Shown piece after piece: positions 18,112 through 40,973 of a stretch of 64,000 bases of DNA. Made by a program: the position numbers and the translations under genes. Numbering within the stretch: the first letter of the stretch is position 1; every line of letters begins with the position of its first letter. The notes under the pieces were generated by a model. The model was not told the origin of the DNA. It did no database searches and was given only the letters and a program-made list of their open reading frames with translations. This DNA is from Moraxella catarrhalis (GTDB lineage: Bacteria > Pseudomonadota > Gammaproteobacteria > Pseudomonadales > Moraxellaceae): contig NZ_LXHE01000007.1 in NCBI RefSeq assembly GCF_001656295.1, positions 1 to 64,000 of the forward strand, given 5' to 3'.

Positions 18112-18187
18112 GGGTGGTTAGCTCAGTTGGTAGAGCATCTGCCTTACAAGCAGAGGGTCAGCGGTTCGATCCCGTTACCACCCACCA
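18112..18187 (+). tRNA. tRNA-Val (TAC)
   Basis: The acceptor stem is GGGTGGT/ACCACCC, the T arm is GGTTCGATC, and the anticodon loop CTTACAA gives anticodon TAC. CCA is encoded. It is four bases from tRNA-Asp and shares its transcript. Confidence 0.97.
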
Positions 18188-18191
18188 TATT

Positions 18192-18268
18192 GCAGCGGTA
18201 GTTCAGTTGGTTAGAATACCGGCCTGTCACGCCGGGGGTCGCGGGTTCGAGTCCCGTCCGCTGCGCCA
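18192..18268 (+). tRNA. tRNA-Asp (GTC)
   Basis: The acceptor stem is GCAGCGG/CCGCTGC, the T arm is GGGTTCGAGTCCC, and the anticodon loop CTGTCAC gives anticodon GTC. CCA is encoded. It follows tRNA-Val directly. Confidence 0.97.
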
Positions 18269-18303
18269 TTTTTAGTGTAGCTTTTATAAGCTTTTCACTT
18301 TCT

Positions 18304-18334
18304 CCCCAAGTCTCCCCTGGCTTGGGGATTTTTT
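18304..18334 (+). terminator. Terminator after tRNA-Asp
   Basis: CCCCAAG and CTTGGGG form a stem with a ten-base loop, followed by ATTTTTTC. It closes the tRNA-Val/Asp transcript. Confidence 0.85.
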
Positions 18335-18431
18335 CTTTGATGGCAAATATTTGTCGGTATGGTCAGCACACCCAAATACTATCGACACCAAGCCAAATTC
18401 AGATGCCTAATAAAGGCAGTTGTGCTAAACT

Positions 18432-20003
18432 ATGATGATTTTACCAGCTATTTTAATTCGCCAGTATCATTCGAGCCAAACAACTATGTCAAGCCCAATC
18501 ATATTTCATCCAAAAACAGTTCACCCAAAAACCAACAACCAAAACACACCACTGCCCAGCGAACCTTATCACCACAAAGCCAATCACAACCAAAACCGCA
18601 GTATCGCCCAAAGCGGTGCGGTGGCAACATCCACATCAAATGGTACACCAAAAATTGGTTTTGTATCACTCGGCTGCCCTAAGGCATTGGTGGACAGTGA
18701 GCGCATCATCACAGAGCTGACTTATGAGGGTTATCAAGTTGCCAATGATTATGATGGTGCAGATTTGGTCGTGGTGAATACCTGCGGATTTATTGAGTCA
18801 GCGGTACAAGAATCTTTGGACGCCATTGGTGAAGCGATTAATAAAAATGGCAAAGTGATTGTTACAGGTTGCTTGGGTAAAGATGCCGAAAAAATTCGTA
18901 CCATGCACCCTGCCGTTTTGGCGGTTACAGGTGCTCACGCTTATGAAGAGGTCATTTCTGCGGTCAATCATCATGTACCAAAACCCGCCAAATCAAAAGA
19001 ATACGACCCAAAGATTGATTTGATTAATGGTGCAGGCATCAAACTTACGCCCAAACACTATGCCTATGTGAAAATTTCTGAAGGGTGTAATCATCGCTGC
19101 ACTTTTTGTATTATCCCATCGCTGCGTGGCGACTTGGTCAGCCGCCCAATAGATGGCGTCATGAAAGAAGCGGTTGCACTTAAAAAATCAGGCGTCAAAG
19201 AACTTTTGGTCATCTCTCAAGATACCTCAGCTTATGGCGTGGATTTAAAATATAAAACTGTATTTTGGGAAGGCTGGCCGCTTAAGTCTAAATTTTATGA
19301 TATGTGTGAGGCGATGTCAAAATTAGGCATTTGGGTACGCCTGCATTATGTGTATCCATACCCACATGTGGATGCAGTCGTTCAAATCATGGCAGACAGC
19401 ATAGCGGCTTCTGGTGGCACGGGAGGCTTACTGCCTTATTTGGACATTCCATTTCAGCATGCCAGCCCCAGCGTCCTAAAGGCTATGAAACGCCCTGCCA
19501 TGAGCGAGAACACCCTTGAGCGCATCCAAGCATGGCGCGCCATTTGCCCAGATATCGTGATTCGCTCAACTTTCGTGGTCGGCTTTCCTGGTGAAACCGA
19601 AGAAGATTTTGAATATCTGCTTGACTGGCTGACCAAGGCTCGCTTGGATCGTGTGGGCTGCTTTACTTATTCAGAAGTCGAAGGCGCGGTCGCCAATGAT
19701 CTGCCCAATCCTGTACCCGAAGAGATCAAGCAAGCACGCTATGAGCGCCTAATGGCACTTCAGCAAAAGATCAGTGCAGAAAAACTTGCTGAAAAAGTCG
19801 GTAAAACGTTGGTCGTTTTGGTAGATGAGATCGACACCGAAGAAAATATCGCCATCTGCCGAAGCTATGCTGATGCGCCCGAAATTGACGGTCATGTCTA
19901 TGTGGACAATATCGACGCCACAGTCAAGGCAGGTGATATGCTGACAGTCGTGATTGATGAAGCAAGTGACTATGATTTGTTTGCAAGCTTTGGGCCGGCA
20001 TAA
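18432..20003 (+). CDS. rimO: Ribosomal protein S12 methylthiotransferase RimO
   Basis: This radical-SAM enzyme adds a methylthio group to an aspartate of ribosomal protein S12. After the N-terminus comes the UPF0004 domain ([17 protein letters not shown], near residue 75), the radical-SAM cluster motif [18 protein letters not shown] (near 220) and a C-terminal TRAM domain. The open frame gives 523 residues against about 440 usually. The extra ~70 residues before the first domain are rich in Asn, His, Pro and Thr and look disordered. No convincing ribosome site was found, and an ATG at 18486 is another candidate start. No rimO partner gene is adjacent. Confidence 0.93.
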
Positions 20004-28330: not shown

Positions 28331-28421
28331 GGAAGCTTGGCAGAGCGGTTGAATGCACCGGTCTTGAAAACCGGCGTGGGTTCATAGCCCACCGAGAGTT
28401 CGAATCTCTCAGCTTCCGCCA
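28331..28421 (+). tRNA. tRNA-Ser (TGA), copy 1
   Basis: This 91-base class II tRNA has a long variable arm (GTGGGTTCATAGCCCAC). The acceptor stem is GGAAGCT/AGCTTCC, the anticodon loop CTTGAAA gives TGA, and CCA is encoded. Confidence 0.97.
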
Positions 28422-28445: not shown

Positions 28446-28536
28446 GGAAGCTTGGCAGAGCGGTTGAATGCACCGGTCTTGAAAACCGGCGTGGGTTCAT
28501 AGCCCACCGAGAGTTCGAATCTCTCAGCTTCCGCCA
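28446..28536 (+). tRNA. tRNA-Ser (TGA), copy 2
   Basis: Identical over all 91 bases to the copy 115 bases upstream, with different flanking bases. Only 24 bases separate the two, so they share the upstream promoter and the downstream terminator. Confidence 0.97.
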
Positions 28537-33895: not shown

Positions 33896-34717
33896 TTACC
33901 AATAATTTTCTACGGCAATATTACCGACACCACGACGATTCATGCTAAGCCCCTGCGCTTTGAGTGCTTCTTTGGTATCCTCAACCATTTGTGGATTACC
34001 ACACAGCATGGCATGCGATTGGGTGTCGAGTGCTACCCCTGTTGTCTTGGCAAGCTCACCATGATCAATTAAGCTTGGAATACGCTCAGATAAACAGCCA
34101 GCGACTTTTTCACGCGTTACGATAGGCACATAATAAAAACGAGCAGGATTATCCACCAACCCCCCAAAGCGTGTTGCCAATGAATGAATTTTGTCTTGAT
34201 ACGCCAATTCACTTTGGGTTCGTGCACTGTATACAAGCACAATGTCATCATAGTGTTCCCAAGCATACAAATCCTGCAGAATGGATAAAAATGGTGCAAG
34301 CCCTGTCCCAGTTGCCAATAACCATAATGTTTTTGGCGTCGGTTCTTGATAGCGTGATAGCGTCAAAAACCCAAATGGTATTGTATTAAGATACAACTGA
34401 TCGCCTGCTTGTAAGTATTGAAGCTGTGATGTAAACTCCCCATCAGCCACCACCACCGAAAAAAACTCAAGTGTCTCATCATACGGAGACGATACCACAG
34501 AATACGCACGAAAAATTGGACTGGCACTCTCAGATTTAAGCGTATCTTGACGCTTATCTTGATAATAAATCAGCTCATCTGCACATAATCCCAGCCGAAC
34601 AAATTGCCCTGCCTCAAACCGAAAACCCTCAGGTCTGGTTGTCGTAAAACTAAATAAATTGGGCGACCAAACTGTCTTTGATAGCACCGTCAATGTCACT
34701 GCTTTGTCATCACTCAT
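33896..34717 (-). CDS. fpr: Ferredoxin/flavodoxin-NADP+ reductase
   Basis: The 273-residue FAD enzyme moves electrons between NADPH and ferredoxin or flavodoxin. The FAD site is FRAYSVVSSPYDETLEFFSV, the NADP site begins LLATGTGLAPFLSIL, and the protein ends in Trp (VENYW), matching the bacterial Fpr group whose C-terminal aromatic residue stacks near the flavin. It is convergent with azlD. Such enzymes often serve oxidative-stress defence and Fe-S repair. Confidence 0.93.
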   Translation of the reverse strand: MSDDKAVTLTVLSKTVWSPNLFSFTTTRPEGFRFEAGQFVRLGLCADELIYYQDKRQDTLKSESASPIFRAYSVVSSPYDETLEFFSVVVADGEFTSQLQYLQAGDQLYLNTIPFGFLTLSRYQEPTPKTLWLLATGTGLAPFLSILQDLYAWEHYDDIVLVYSARTQSELAYQDKIHSLATRFGGLVDNPARFYYVPIVTREKVAGCLSERIPSLIDHGELAKTTGVALDTQSHAMLCGNPQMVEDTKEALKAQGLSMNRRGVGNIAVENYW

Positions 34718-34968
34718 GATGTTCTCTTCACCATTATCATCTTAATCACCAATGTCATCTTAACAGACATTGGACTTTTATTGTGTATTTTGACTGATAA
34801 TTTAGCTTTAGTCAAATCATCAGTCACGCATCAAATCCAAAAAACTGCCTTGATTGCCTTTAAAATTATCACTTGAAATATTAATAAATATTCTTATATA
34901 ATAAATATAAATTAAATACTATCAATTTTTTTCATACAAGTTTTATCACAACCAAAAGGAAAATTATT

Positions 34969-35718
34969 ATGGCTTTTAAAGACATGACAGGACAAAAAGT
35001 CCCAAATGCTGTATTTCATACACGCCAAGATGATCAATGGGTTGATGTGAACACTGATGAGCTTTTTAGTGGTAAAAAAGTCGTGGTTTTTTCATTACCA
35101 GGTGCCTTTACGCCGACTTGTTCATCAACACATTTGCCGCGTTATAATGAATTGGCAGATGAATTTAAAAAATTGGGCATTGATGATATTTTGTGCGTAT
35201 CGGTGAATGATACCTTTGTGATGAATGCTTGGGCAGACGACCAAGAAAGCGACAAGATAACTTTAATCCCAGATGGTAATGGTGAGTTTACCGAAGGCAT
35301 GAATCGTTTGGTTGGCAAAGAAGATTTGGGCTTTGGTAAGCGTTCATGGCGTTATTCGATGCTTGTTGATGATGGCGTGATTGTCAAAATCTTTGATGAG
35401 CCCGAAAAAGATGGCGATCCGTTTGAGGTTTCAGATGCTGACACCATGATCAAATTTTTAAATCCAGACTGGGAAGAGAAGCCATCTGTAACCATTATTA
35501 CCAAGCCTGGTTGTGATTTTTGTGCCAAGGCTAAAGAGGCTTTAAAATCTCATGGCGTTGCATATGAAGAAGTTGTACTTGGTCGAGATGCCAGCATGAC
35601 AAGTGTTCGTGCCATCACTGGTCATGAGACAGTGCCACAAGTCTTTGTTGGTGGCAAACGCATCGGCGGTTCAGAAGAGCTTGAAACTTATTTGGCAAGT
35701 GATGACTGTGCCGTTTAA
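34969..35718 (+). CDS. Peroxiredoxin-glutaredoxin fusion (hybrid Prx5)
   Basis: The 249-residue protein joins a Prx5-type peroxidase (about 1-160) to a glutaredoxin (about 170-249). The peroxidatic cysteine lies in LPGAFTPTCSSTHLPRY (near residue 49), and the glutaredoxin redox pair is CDFC in TKPGCDFCAKAKEAL with the cis-Pro in HETVPQVFVGG. The fusion lets glutathione reduce the peroxidase directly, as in the Haemophilus and Neisseria enzymes. AAAGGA provides the ribosome site. A terminator follows. Confidence 0.95.
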   Translation: MAFKDMTGQKVPNAVFHTRQDDQWVDVNTDELFSGKKVVVFSLPGAFTPTCSSTHLPRYNELADEFKKLGIDDILCVSVNDTFVMNAWADDQESDKITLIPDGNGEFTEGMNRLVGKEDLGFGKRSWRYSMLVDDGVIVKIFDEPEKDGDPFEVSDADTMIKFLNPDWEEKPSVTIITKPGCDFCAKAKEALKSHGVAYEEVVLGRDASMTSVRAITGHETVPQVFVGGKRIGGSEELETYLASDDCAV

Positions 35719-35861: not shown

Positions 35862-37340
35862 TTACAGCATCACTGCTCGGGCAGCCATTTGCATCATTGC
35901 TTCTGGTAGTACACCAAAGACAACGATCAGCGCAGTGATAATCATCACCATGACTCCACCTGCCTTAACGCCCCAATGTTGGTGTGCATCAAACTCAAGA
36001 TTGACTTTGGGTTTTTGGTACAGATTGACCAAAATACGCAAATAATAATACAAACCGATGGCACTACCCAAAATAATCATGCCAGCTGCCCAAAAGCGCA
36101 CGCCTTGTACAGCTGCAAAGAACATGGTAAATTTGGTAATAAATCCTGCCGTCAGCGGAATACCTGCCAATGATAGTAGCATCACAGTCAGCACCGCCGT
36201 TAGAACGGGACGACGCCAAAATAATCCTTGATAAAAACGCAGGTCATCCGCTTCACCACTGATCGAAGTGCGTCCACGCTCACGATATGGACTTGACATA
36301 AGGGTGATTACCCCAAACGCTCCAATAGATGTCAGTGCATAAACTGCCATATACATACTCACCAAAGGTAAGCTGCCCGCTCCGATCGATAAAAGTGCAA
36401 TCAAAGCATAGCCAATGTGCGCAATCGAAGAATACGCAAGCATACGCTTAATGTTATTTTGGCTGATTGCAAGCAAGTTACCCATTAAAATAGACAAAAC
36501 AATGACAACAATCAAAATCGTGTCAAAAGCTGACATGGCGGTGGACATACTGCCCACAAAGAATCTGAGTGCAAGCGCCATCATAGCTACTTTACTTACA
36601 CTTGCCAAAAAAGCAGCGATCGGTGCTGGCGCGCCTTCATAGACATCTGATACCCATGAATGAAATGGCGCTGCTGATAATTTAAATGCCACAGCTGCCA
36701 ACATCATCACCGCTCCAACCACACTCAAGCTAGACAGATTGCCAACCAAAAGATTTCTTGCCAAATCTTTGAAGAATAAAGCACCTGTATCAGCAAAGAT
36801 CAGCGCCATCCCCATGAGTAACGTCACGGAAGCTGTGGCAGACATGATCAGATATTTTAAACCTGACTCAAGCGATCTAGAGCGCAAGAAAGTGTATGCT
36901 AACATGCCATACATCGGCACAGACAGTAGCTCAAGCGACATAAAAAATGCCGCCAAATGCTCTGCGCCTGTCATCAGCATCGCCCCTAAGGTAGAGATTA
37001 GCATGAGCAAATACAGCTCATCTTTATGATCTTTTAATGTCTCAAAATAGCCATAAGCCAATGTACAACAAGCCAGCGCTGCGATCAAAATCACGCCCAT
37101 ATTAAAAATCGCAAAGCCATCAAAGACAAACAGCCCACCAAAAGATGCACCTGCAGGCACCAAGCCTAACGCTTGAGCGACAACTGCCAGTAAGGCAATG
37201 TTCAGACCTGCAACGCTGAGCGTTGCTGTCCAAAAATGAGAGCGCTTGACAGCAATGGCAATCATCACGATGAGTGCAGTGAGCGCCACCACCACAGCAG
37301 GCAGTATCGATAAAATAGATTCAAAAATCATAGGATTCAT
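35862..37340 (-). CDS. nuoN: NADH-quinone oxidoreductase subunit N
   Basis: This 492-residue antiporter-like membrane subunit of complex I is one of three that pump protons. It has about 14 helices, with the lysine-bearing LAAVAFKLSAAPFHSWVSDVYEGAPAP and NNIKRMLAYSSIAHIGYALIALL. Length is normal. It is the last gene of the operon, two bases after nuoM. Confidence 0.95.
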   Translation of the reverse strand: MNPMIFESILSILPAVVVALTALIVMIAIAVKRSHFWTATLSVAGLNIALLAVVAQALGLVPAGASFGGLFVFDGFAIFNMGVILIAALACCTLAYGYFETLKDHKDELYLLMLISTLGAMLMTGAEHLAAFFMSLELLSVPMYGMLAYTFLRSRSLESGLKYLIMSATASVTLLMGMALIFADTGALFFKDLARNLLVGNLSSLSVVGAVMMLAAVAFKLSAAPFHSWVSDVYEGAPAPIAAFLASVSKVAMMALALRFFVGSMSTAMSAFDTILIVVIVLSILMGNLLAISQNNIKRMLAYSSIAHIGYALIALLSIGAGSLPLVSMYMAVYALTSIGAFGVITLMSSPYRERGRTSISGEADDLRFYQGLFWRRPVLTAVLTVMLLSLAGIPLTAGFITKFTMFFAAVQGVRFWAAGMIILGSAIGLYYYLRILVNLYQKPKVNLEFDAHQHWGVKAGGVMVMIITALIVVFGVLPEAMMQMAARAVML

Positions 37341-37342
37341 GA

Positions 37343-39100
37343 TTATTCTCCCTGCTTGGTTTGGTGGTCTTGGTGGTGCTCATGACCTGCGTGATCATGA
37401 TCGTGATGATGGTCAAACCCTTCATGATGATGCATACCAGCATCATACCGTTGACCATGCAGCTCATGGTGATGGGTGTGCATGTAATCGCCCATATTCC
37501 CTTCAATTAGGCGAATGCCATGCTTAGGCTCAGTCGCCATGGTCACATCATGGGCATAAGCACTTGCGATCCACTGCATCGATCCTTCGGATTTATCCAT
37601 AACAGGCTGAGGATACAAGCCAAGCCACACCAATCCAATCGCCAAAGAAAGCAGCAGCGCCAATTCACGCTTGCCCAAATCTTTTAGCGTGCCATGATTT
37701 TGCTTCACCAAATCAAGCGTGGTATTTTGACCGAATAATGCACGATAAATCATAATCAAAGAATACAAACCTGCCATCACAAGGCTTGCTGTAGCAAGCG
37801 TAACAAAGATCGGATGTTTGGCAAAAGAACCAATCAAAATCAAAATCTCACCGATAAAGTTACCCGTACCTGGTATGCCTAACAATGCCGCGCTAAAGAA
37901 CATGAGCAGCGGTGCAATATAGCGAAATTGACCCCACATACCGCCCATCAAAGTCATGTCACGCGTATGCAGGCGCTCGTATAATTGACCCGCCATGATG
38001 AATAGCGCCGCACTTGAAAGACCATGCGCAATCATCTGCACCATTAGTCCTTGTAATGAAATCAGACTGCCGTCATAAATTGCCAAAACAACAAAGCCCA
38101 TGTGCGATACGCTGGTATAAGCCAATAGACGCTTAATATCCGTCTGCGCAAATGCCAAAAATGCGCCATAAAATACACCAATCATACCCAAAGTGATCGC
38201 CACCGGCGCAAATTCTGCTGAAGCATTTGGGAACAGTGGAATCACAAAGCGCAACAAGCCAAACGCCGCAGTCTTAATCAAAATCCCAGCCAAGTCTACC
38301 GAGCCTGCCGTAGGCGCCTGGGCGTGCGCATCTGGCAGCCAGCCATGCAAAGGGAAGACTGGTAGCTTAACAGCAAAACCAATAAAGAAGCAAAGCATGA
38401 TGATGTATTCCCAACCACCCAGATCTACACCCAAGAGGTCATGATAATCAAAACTTAGCACCCCAGTTTGGCTAAAATGAATGATGACCAGCAATAAAAT
38501 GCCAATCAGCATAATCAAGCCTGAGGCTTGTGTGTAAATAAAGAATTTGGTTGCTGCGTATTCTTTGGTCTTACCACCTGTGGCATTATGTCCCCAAAGT
38601 GCAATCAAAAAATAAATTGGCAGTAGCATCAATTCCCAAAAGAAGAAAAATAAAAACAAATCAATGGCTAAAAATACGCCAATCACGCCGCCTAGTGACC
38701 ACAGCAGATTAAGATGAAAAAATCCGACACGGCGCTGAATTTCGCCCCACGAACAGCCCACCGCCATGATACCCAAAAACGCCGTCAGAGCAATCATCAG
38801 CAAAGACAAGCCGTCCATAGCCAAATGAAATTTAATGCCAAAACTTGGAATCCATGGCAGGATAAACTGCGCCGCCCAAGGTAAGGTCTCGCCACTGACA
38901 GGCGCATCTGTCACCAGTAGCGTATTAAAATTTCCTTGCTGCCAAAGCACCAAGGTCAAAATAAAAGTAATGATCATGCCGATCAGCGCAATCCAGCGCG
39001 GCAGTCGATCACTGACTTTTTCAATTAACCAGCACAGTAAGCCTGCAATAAATGGAATTGCGATCAATGCTGGCAGTATCCAGTTTTGTTCTAATGCCAT
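37343..39100 (-). CDS. nuoM: NADH-quinone oxidoreductase subunit M, histidine-rich tail
   Basis: This proton-pumping membrane subunit contains FFFFWELMLLPIYFLIALWG, FAVKLPVFPLHGWLPDAHAQAPTAGSV and TDIKRLLAYTSVSHMGFV. At 585 residues it is longer than the roughly 510-residue usual form. The excess is a C-terminal tail after the last helix, whose final 45 residues hold 17 histidines, with HTHHH, MHHH, DHHHDHDH and HEHH clusters. Such a tail would be able to bind Zn, Ni, Cu or Fe. No other nuo product here shows it. The frame is clean and the next gene begins two bases later, so the tail is not a frameshift artefact. Confidence 0.95.
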   Translation of the reverse strand: MALEQNWILPALIAIPFIAGLLCWLIEKVSDRLPRWIALIGMIITFILTLVLWQQGNFNTLLVTDAPVSGETLPWAAQFILPWIPSFGIKFHLAMDGLSLLMIALTAFLGIMAVGCSWGEIQRRVGFFHLNLLWSLGGVIGVFLAIDLFLFFFFWELMLLPIYFLIALWGHNATGGKTKEYAATKFFIYTQASGLIMLIGILLLVIIHFSQTGVLSFDYHDLLGVDLGGWEYIIMLCFFIGFAVKLPVFPLHGWLPDAHAQAPTAGSVDLAGILIKTAAFGLLRFVIPLFPNASAEFAPVAITLGMIGVFYGAFLAFAQTDIKRLLAYTSVSHMGFVVLAIYDGSLISLQGLMVQMIAHGLSSAALFIMAGQLYERLHTRDMTLMGGMWGQFRYIAPLLMFFSAALLGIPGTGNFIGEILILIGSFAKHPIFVTLATASLVMAGLYSLIMIYRALFGQNTTLDLVKQNHGTLKDLGKRELALLLSLAIGLVWLGLYPQPVMDKSEGSMQWIASAYAHDVTMATEPKHGIRLIEGNMGDYMHTHHHELHGQRYDAGMHHHEGFDHHHDHDHAGHEHHQDHQTKQGE

Positions 39101-39101
39101 G

Positions 39102-40973
39102 TTACACCACCACCATCAATGCTAAGATTAAAATAACCGCCAGACCTGCACCAAAGCCGATGGCATGAGTGCGCAAAAGCCCAGTTTGGGTTTTTGTTGT
39201 TAATTTATTACCCAATGATGCACCCAGAGGTAAGATATTAATTAGGCGATCAATCGGATCGGATTTCAAGATCTTGGTGATGCCCAAAAATGGCTTAACA
39301 AAAACAATGTCATACAAAGCATCAAAACCCAAACCATGATAACACCAATGATACAGCGCACCGCCTAGACGAGTTTGTTTGAAACTGTTAAGCAGTCTGC
39401 CTTGATTGAGCGCATATAACACCACGCCTAGCGCCAAACCTGCCGCCATAAATGCCATCGCGATATATTCAGCCGTATGTTTGGCATCTGCATTACCTGC
39501 TTGCTCAAGCAGCTGACCTGCGCCCAGCGGCAGCACATCATTCAATGGCGGAATGATCATCGCACCGATACCCGTTGAGAGCACCAATAACACAGACAAA
39601 GGTAGCCAATAAGAGATGCCTGAGAGTTTTTCGGCATGGGTTTTTTCTTCACCAAAAAAGGTGATCCATATCAAGCGGAAAGTATAAACAGAAGTCAAAA
39701 ACGCGCCAAAGACACCTGCCCAAAATAAAGTCTGATAGCCACCGGCATAAGCTTCCCAAAGGATCGCCTCTTTAGAATAAAAGCCGACAGTCACCCAAGG
39801 CAGCGCTACCAGTGCGCCGCCACCGACGACAAAGCAGGCAAACACCAAAGGAATTTTCTTTGCCAGTCCGCCCATCTTAAAGATGTTTTGCTCGTGATGT
39901 ACTGATAAAATCACCGCGCCAGAAGCTAAGAACAGCAGCGCCTTAAAAAACGCATGCGTCATCAGATGGAAAATCGCAGCTTGCCATGCACCAACGCCCA
40001 AAGCAATAAACATATATCCCAGCTGACTCATGGTTGAATAAGCCAAAATACGCTTGATGTCTGTTTGTGCCAACGCACAAAATCCAGCCACCAACATTGA
40101 GATAGCGCCAACGCCACCCACCCAATATAGTAAAATTTCAGGCGTTAAGATAAACACAGGATGCATGCGAGCGATCAAATACACCCCTGCTGTTACCATG
40201 GTCGCAGCGTGAATGAGTGCAGATACAGGTGTAGGACCTGCCATCGCATCGGCAAGCCAAGTGTGTAATGGGATTTGAGCTGATTTACCCCAAGCACCAC
40301 CAACAAGCATCATCGCAGCCAGCACTAAGTTTGGGTTATTGACACCAAACATCTCAGGGGCACGCATGATAATATCGCTGATCGTTAGCGTGCCAAACTC
40401 ACGGAATAATATAAACAGACCAATCGCCAAGAAGACATCACCAACGCGCGTCACTGTAAATGCTTTAATGGCGGCGCGTCCATTGGCACGCTCATGGAAA
40501 TAAAATCCAATCAAAAGATACGAACAAATACCTACGCCTTCCCAGCCAAGATAAAGTAGCAATAAATTATCCGCCTGTACCAGCAATAACATACTTGCAA
40601 CGAATAAATTCAGATAACTAAAAAATCTGGCAAATCCAGCCTCGCCGTTCATGTACCAAGAAGCGAACAGATGAATTAAAAAGCCAACGCCAGTGATGAT
40701 GCCTGTCATAGTCAGAGTCAAGCCATCAAACAACAAGCCAAATGCCGGCGCAAATTCACCCACTTTTAGCCATGTCCACAAAGGAATATTAACCACCTGT
40801 CCTGAATAGTTTTGTAAATAATCCATAGATGCCATGGCAGCTGCAATGGCTGACAGCAGCATCGAGCCGACGCCCACGATGGTCGCCGCCATCTGAGAAA
40901 GGCGGTCGCGCAAGCTAGCTAAAATTAAAAATCCAATGAGTGGGCAAATAAAAGTCCACATCAGCATACTCAT
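39102..40973 (-). CDS. nuoL: NADH-quinone oxidoreductase subunit L
   Basis: This 623-residue subunit is the distal proton pump of complex I. It includes LLYLGWEGVGICSYLLIGFYF, GAWGKSAQIPLHTWLADAMAGPTPVSALIHAATMVTAG and the long lateral helix near the C-terminus. Length and motifs are standard. It ends one base before nuoM. Confidence 0.96.
   Translation of the reverse strand: MSMLMWTFICPLIGFLILASLRDRLSQMAATIVGVGSMLLSAIAAAMASMDYLQNYSGQVVNIPLWTWLKVGEFAPAFGLLFDGLTLTMTGIITGVGFLIHLFASWYMNGEAGFARFFSYLNLFVASMLLLVQADNLLLLYLGWEGVGICSYLLIGFYFHERANGRAAIKAFTVTRVGDVFLAIGLFILFREFGTLTISDIIMRAPEMFGVNNPNLVLAAMMLVGGAWGKSAQIPLHTWLADAMAGPTPVSALIHAATMVTAGVYLIARMHPVFILTPEILLYWVGGVGAISMLVAGFCALAQTDIKRILAYSTMSQLGYMFIALGVGAWQAAIFHLMTHAFFKALLFLASGAVILSVHHEQNIFKMGGLAKKIPLVFACFVVGGGALVALPWVTVGFYSKEAILWEAYAGGYQTLFWAGVFGAFLTSVYTFRLIWITFFGEEKTHAEKLSGISYWLPLSVLLVLSTGIGAMIIPPLNDVLPLGAGQLLEQAGNADAKHTAEYIAMAFMAAGLALGVVLYALNQGRLLNSFKQTRLGGALYHWCYHGLGFDALYDIVFVKPFLGITKILKSDPIDRLINILPLGASLGNKLTTKTQTGLLRTHAIGFGAGLAVILILALMVVV

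Follow-up and report, generated by a model that had tools for sequence, protein, structure and literature searches.

Bacterial complex I is commonly seen as a bare, conserved machine, and the nuo locus of Moraxella catarrhalis raises the question of why one of its proton-pumping subunits, NuoM, ends in a run of histidines. The locus lies in the stretch of DNA analysed here (the window, 64,000 nucleotides of contig NZ_LXHE01000007.1). We asked whether the tail is real and peculiar to this lineage, whether it is under selection, and what it could do.

NuoM and its added C-terminal tail

The 585-residue product of the open reading frame placed between nuoL and nuoN is NuoM (NDH-1 subunit M; Table 1). 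Its residues 7-517 matched positions 1-506 of the 509 of the NCBIfam NuoM equivalog profile NF004498 (869.3 bits, cut-off 614), the Proton_antipo_M family PF00361 scored 227 bits, and E. coli NuoM (PDB 3rko chain M) was aligned with E=1.2e-196. In an AlphaFold2 model (35 sequences, pLDDT 81, pTM 0.81), 14 transmembrane helices, counted from secondary structure and including broken helices, were followed by a C-terminal helix, as in E. coli NuoM, which is likewise a 14-helix antiporter-like subunit with a C-terminal helix. The aligned core stops at residues 517-520, residue 505 of the 509 of E. coli NuoM pairing with residue 520 of the window's protein. The E. coli protein ends four residues past the aligned part, whereas the window's NuoM adds about 65 residues that are His-rich and, with pLDDT below 50 throughout residues 518-585, predicted to be disordered. 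Other NuoM proteins examined stop inside the C-terminal helix or soon beyond it.

Table 1. Positions in the window of nuoM, the parts of its 3' end and the adjacent nuo genes
Feature	Position	Strand	Basis or remark
nuoM, whole gene	37343..39100	minus	585 aa + stop; NCBIfam NF004498, PF00361, 3rko_M
C-terminal helix after TMH14, residues 498-521	37538..37609	minus	AlphaFold2 helix; E. coli NuoM alignment
Added tail, residues 518-585, predicted disordered	37346..37549	minus	pLDDT < 50; past residue 517, where the NCBIfam match stops
Conserved tail segment, residues 527-541, HGIRLIEGNMGDYMH in the window	37478..37522	minus	recognised by eye; 6 of 14 tail-clade species, both main branches
His-rich end, residues 541-585, 17/45 His	37346..37480	minus	count; mixed CAC/CAT codons
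Shine-Dalgarno-like GGGAGA for nuoN, within the final tail codons	37347..37352	minus	read from sequence
nuoN	35862..37340	minus	start 2 bases past nuoM stop; no His tail
nuoL	39102..40973	minus	no His tail

A first-pass annotation had reported 17 histidines in the last 45 residues, with the clusters HTHHH, MHHH, DHHHDHDH and HEHH, and all of them were found in the translated reading frame; the extension that it put at about 70 residues measured 65-68, from the end of the NCBIfam match and from the E. coli alignment. These clusters are far over background: such a composition has a binomial chance of 3e-16 at the His frequency of the NuoM core (2.5%), and the runner-up 45-residue stretch in the window, among open reading frames of at least 100 residues with an ATG start, contains 8 His.

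No His tail was observed on the two adjoining subunits: in 18 rows per subunit (16 from Moraxella), the last 45 residues contained 0-2 His in NuoL and 0-3 in NuoN (several NuoN rows end at the locus edge). The window's NuoN scored above TIGR01770 and slightly below NF004439 (511 versus 531 bits). Besides the window, GGAG or GGGGAG lies within the final nuoM codons of G092, G071, G067, G025 and G036, and 3' of the nuoM stop codon in G058, G106, G089, G078 and G063; the Shine-Dalgarno-like site of nuoN may explain the recurrent ...GE ending of the tail. Elsewhere in the window, two adjoining tRNA genes of equal score were observed on the plus strand (28331-28418 and 28446-28533).

Distribution, origin and loss of the tail

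A search for the NuoM family gave matches in 143 of 149 genomes, a few of them weak matches to other antiporter-like proteins. The C-terminal end was examined in 70 of the 143 (30 + 40 loci), and none of the 52 from other genera is His-rich (0-4 His after TMH14; three viewed with a 110-residue window had 2, 4 and 6). Similarly, among 80 named loci taken from 172 relatives, the 70 non-Moraxella ones showed no His-rich NuoM end, with a maximum of 5 His in 53 residues (one, L097, ends at a contig edge). In a class sample, a C-terminal NuoM query matched 207 of 369 genomes and, among the matches listed, only the window's stop-free match extends beyond query position 84 (NuoM residue 523). Complete ends were obtained for 33 of the 34 class genomes examined, which were chosen as best-scoring or for their long frames (G005 belongs both to this set and to the 52); they run 6-27 residues past the match with 0-2 His, and none has a tail. 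Within the limits of this sampling, the His-rich NuoM tail thus occurs in Moraxella only, and a rare independent case elsewhere is possible. The first-pass annotation had considered that such a tail might prove widespread and variable; it is variable, differing among Moraxella species, and in the ends examined it occurs in Moraxella only. Some Psychrobacter NuoM frames (L043, a metagenome-assembled genome, and L124-L129) reach 579-618 residues and have no C-terminal tail; that of L043 has an insertion between the TMH13 and TMH14 regions.

Within the genus, NuoM was recovered from 18 of 22 genomes. Ten proteins have 9-21 His after residue 506 (the window 19, G092 15, G058 21, G025 11, G106 21, G036 9, G089 21, G078 (M. 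bovoculi) 21, G075 (M. oblonga) 16 and G100 15), three have tails that belong to the same clade but are His-poor (G071 5, G045 5, G063 (M. oculi) 4), M. cuniculi (G067) has no tail and no His, and four have unrelated His-poor ends (G010, G081 and G086 none, G097 3, with nine masked residues). Three draft genomes, G094, G103 and G109 (93, 86 and 63% complete), gave no Proton_antipo_M match, complex I being apparently lost or absent from the assembly. G052, listed as 100% complete, gave no match to NuoM, PF00361, rpoB, the DsbD_2 protein described below or Zur, and was treated as unreadable rather than as lacking complex I.

In the NuoM tree, the window and 13 genomes (all but G010, G081, G086 and G097) form a clade (support 97/90). 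Because its four His-poor members (G071, G067, G045 and G063) are scattered, each adjoining a rich relative, the His run has disappeared or decayed on about four occasions, and this repeated loss argues against an essential role of the tail in pumping. A HGIRLIDGNMADYMH-like segment is common to the window, G092, G071, G025, G036 and G075, and its occurrence in both main branches shows, as judged by this segment, that their tails are of common origin. Faster evolution specific to NuoM after tail loss was rejected: in each pair compared (G071/G092, G045/G100, G063/G058, G067/window; some are non-sisters in the NuoL and NuoN trees), the end branch of the tail-poor member is the longer one for all three subunits, NuoM, NuoL and NuoN.

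The rpoB tree (rpoB was obtained from 24 of 28 genomes) nests G010, G081 and G086 in the second main branch (98/94), unlike the NuoM tree, and the NuoL tree likewise places G010 and G097 there. These four species may have lost or replaced a tailed NuoM, in which case the tail is possibly as old as the genus. In the nuo loci of G010 and G097 (L155 and L157), NuoN is divergent (57-60% to the window's, on long branches) and NuoL is normal (about 75%); a replacement of the nuoM-nuoN end is possible in these two. In the explanation that we favour, the tail arose either inside Moraxella or at the root of the genus.

Selection on the tail and other His-rich proteins of the genome

The His codons of the window's tail are 7 CAC and 12 CAT. 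A search for tandem repeats gave one weak 2.5-copy repeat inside the tail (score 33, 21 bases, 37357-37377) and none that spans it. In the nine pairs of species computed, pN/pS of the tail was 0.24-0.46. Between G106 and G089, pS was 0.34 and pN 0.08 (Fisher p 0.0015; core pN 0.007), between G025 and G036 0.49 and 0.12 (p 0.0004; core pN 0.031), and between the window and G092 0.80 and 0.33 (p 1.4e-6; core pN 0.077). The protein sequence of the tail is under purifying selection, looser than that on the pump core. The mixed codons, the lack of a spanning repeat and the pN/pS values exclude slippage or a simple-repeat artefact, and the tail is therefore a selected protein sequence. A chance extension of the frame was also rejected, as pN/pS is below 1, the nuoM stop lies 2 bases before nuoN, and the nuoN ribosome-binding site is in the final codons in the window and five relatives.

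Whether histidine itself is selected was addressed at aligned His codons. In the two closest pairs (G106-G089 and G025-G036), 9 of 12 changes were synonymous (p 0.00015 for an expectation of 2/9, 0.004 for 1/3), and in four pairs 20 of 40 (p 0.0001 and 0.02, respectively), values to be read with an aligner biased to His-His columns and a pS close to saturation in wide pairs. Between the window and G092, 12 aligned His sites were replaced and 8 kept. Pairs that include the His-poor tail of G071 gave pN/pS of 0.38 and 0.46, similar to the 0.41 of window-G092, so that this ratio cannot separate a His-rich tail from a decayed one. Selection on His as such therefore appears to rest on the close pairs; the tail looks kept by selection in most Moraxella species examined.

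NuoM is not the only protein of this genome with such a stretch. Three His-codon patterns searched in the genome gave 7, 40 and 39 matches, versus 1, 12 and 7 for the reversed patterns. Sixty-one loci were examined from these matches, the majority of which are short or unlikely frames; 19 matches of the 40- and 39-match patterns gave no new locus, some being already covered. Among the proteins found in credible frames is a Fur-family regulator (PF01475) with a His-rich N-terminus (L170, G000:C11:51737-52237), adjoined by an ABC ATPase whose C-terminus is His-rich; we read the former as Zur-like and the latter as ZnuC-like. A TonB receptor with the His-rich loop HTHDDHAHDHDHEH (L200:502-2913, G000:C21:165298-167709) is ZnuD-like, with 638 bits for NCBIfam ZnuD, under the cut-off of 950. 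The receptor of G010 is 97% identical to it, other matches in the genus being at 42-55%, which suggests a recent transfer. A small lipoprotein-like protein with a long His/Asp/Glu run (L195:1213-1809, G000:C18, about 18164-18760) has no Pfam match at 0.001, a protein with a signal peptide ends in HHHHHAH, and a DsbD_2 (PF13386) membrane protein has a tail with 22 His in 54 residues (L204:1435-2283, G000:C1, about 34277-35125). By inference only, zinc would be favoured over nickel or iron as the metal of the NuoM tail, because similar His stretches occur on these zinc-handler-like proteins.

The same observations are what would be expected if Moraxella envelope proteins easily gained His-rich disordered ends, the NuoM tail being tolerated under weak selection on solubility or composition. 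His-rich stretches occur on several unrelated proteins; of 20 Moraxella DsbD_2 tails (L294-L316; G106, whose frame is interrupted by a stop, was set apart), 19 have 12-28 His, including those of species where NuoM has no tail, and two Psychrobacter tails have 13 and 7; and at four points of the NuoM tree the His run has decayed or disappeared, with large indels between species. We nevertheless hold this explanation doubtful: the tail pN/pS values in nine pairs and the excess of synonymous changes among the His codons of the close pairs speak against it, and NuoL and NuoN have no such tail.

Co-variation with the other His-rich proteins was limited. The His count of NuoM was not associated with that of DsbD_2 (rho 0.21, p 0.41; 18 species, the stop-cut G106 included). 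With the Zur N-terminal His count, rho was 0.68 (p 0.002; 18 species, counted partly upstream of the start) and 0.55 (p 0.018) after a hand recount, relatedness being ignored in both. The ZnuD-like receptor was present in 9 of 10 rich-tail species and in 6 of 8 others (G052 left out), that is, no association. M. cuniculi, a single lineage, combines the loss of the NuoM tail with the poorest DsbD_2 tail examined (3 His in 33) and no ZnuD-like match at 1e-60; apart from this case, a link between the tail and ZnuD was rejected, and such a match was also absent from G036, G097 and G103.

Position of the tail and its putative role

According to three structural reports, both the TMH2-3 beta-hairpin of ND4 and the TMH14-15 insertion of ND5 are periplasmic in Paracoccus complex I (PMC11522691), beta-hairpin elements connect the antiporter-like subunits on the periplasmic side (PMC7419157), and NuoL, NuoM and NuoN, with fourteen helices each, are alike in orientation (PMC3046159). 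Our NuoM model has a confident core with a beta-hairpin (residues 77-95) between TMH2 and TMH3. Since twelve helices were counted from this hairpin to TMH14, the C-terminus falls on the hairpin side, and the tail is likely periplasmic, on the evidence of homologues, fold and literature. The ND5 insertion of Paracoccus denitrificans is comparable in position, being flexible, partly disordered and periplasmic after TMH14 of an antiporter-like subunit; it differs in being internal and on NuoL/ND5, and the likeness is one of position and flexibility (PMC11522691).

HHH and HxHxH clusters are a common metal-binding form. We tentatively favour, at a probability of roughly 45%, that the tail is a tethered, dispensable, periplasmic buffer for zinc or another metal. 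Fused after TMH14 and the C-terminal helix, the disordered tail would reach out into the periplasm alongside the membrane arm, and its His/Asp/Glu/Gly clusters would bind labile zinc (or copper or nickel) weakly and at many sites. Such a buffer would complement the zinc uptake system, and perhaps shield the proton-exit face from free metal. It seems improbable that loading with zinc or copper alters the shape of the tail, or the contacts that it makes at the C-terminal helix and the beta-hairpin belt, and thereby tunes or protects pumping; if it did, respiration on mucosal surfaces from which hosts withhold zinc would be coupled to the metal supply of the periplasm.

Two other roles were considered. 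The imidazoles could act as a proton antenna or local pH buffer that catches and spreads pumped protons at the exit face, or protects the pump at mildly acid pH. The computed charge of the tail indeed goes from -7.4 at pH 7.5 to +7.8 at pH 5.5 (standard pKa assumed), and a periplasmic place on a proton-pumping subunit would suit this role. We consider it unlikely, as any His/Asp/Glu-rich peptide has such a swing, the tail is dispensable in sister species, and HHH and HxHxH are typical of metal binding. Alternatively, the HGIRLIDGNMADYMH segment could be the working part, docking a neighbour subunit, an assembly factor or a supercomplex partner, with the His run as an accessory. This segment is the best-kept part of the tail in six species of both main branches and is retained in the His-poor G071. 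However, about 7 residues of the segment are missing, in the alignment, from G058, G106, G089, G078 and G100, which still have 15-21 His, and there is no known partner; docking thus appears quite unlikely.

The proposed metal buffer has partial parallels in other systems. PA4063 of Pseudomonas aeruginosa, a protein of periplasmic zinc trafficking, is reported to have His-rich loops that are disordered in the apoprotein and contribute to zinc binding (PMC8561739). PA4063 resembles the NuoM tail in its periplasmic, His-rich, disordered parts, and differs in being a folded protein of its own, expressed when zinc is deficient and standing outside the respiratory enzymes. The first-pass annotation knew of no metal-binding tail on complex I. 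This holds for the NuoM tail itself, found in Moraxella only among the ends examined, and a search of the open literature for His-rich NuoM, Moraxella nuoM or His-rich NADH-quinone oxidoreductase found nothing relevant; it does not hold for His-rich elements of complex I at large, which have a precedent in NDUFB3 (B12) of mammalian mitochondria. As reported, NDUFB3 carries a short alternating-His run with a species-variable number of HxH, zinc is bound by an HxH peptide from a different METTL9 target, and less once the peptide is methylated, and METTL9 activity increases complex I respiration (PMC7873184). This is the nearest precedent, as a works-like comparison only: the NDUFB3 run is N-terminal, on a supernumerary (accessory) subunit and methylated by METTL9, whereas the Moraxella run lies on the NuoM/ND4 chain itself. 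By analogy, NDUFB3 suggests that respiration can be affected by His-rich elements of complex I.

In conclusion, these analyses establish the tail itself, its range in the genomes sampled, its common origin, its purifying selection and its predicted disorder. A lineage-specific, selected tail of metal-binding type on a pumping subunit has a parallel in the methylated His run that mammalian NDUFB3 carries, and the presence of tailed and tail-less NuoM within one genus, including sister pairs, makes Moraxella a natural comparison for asking whether metals act on complex I from the periplasm.
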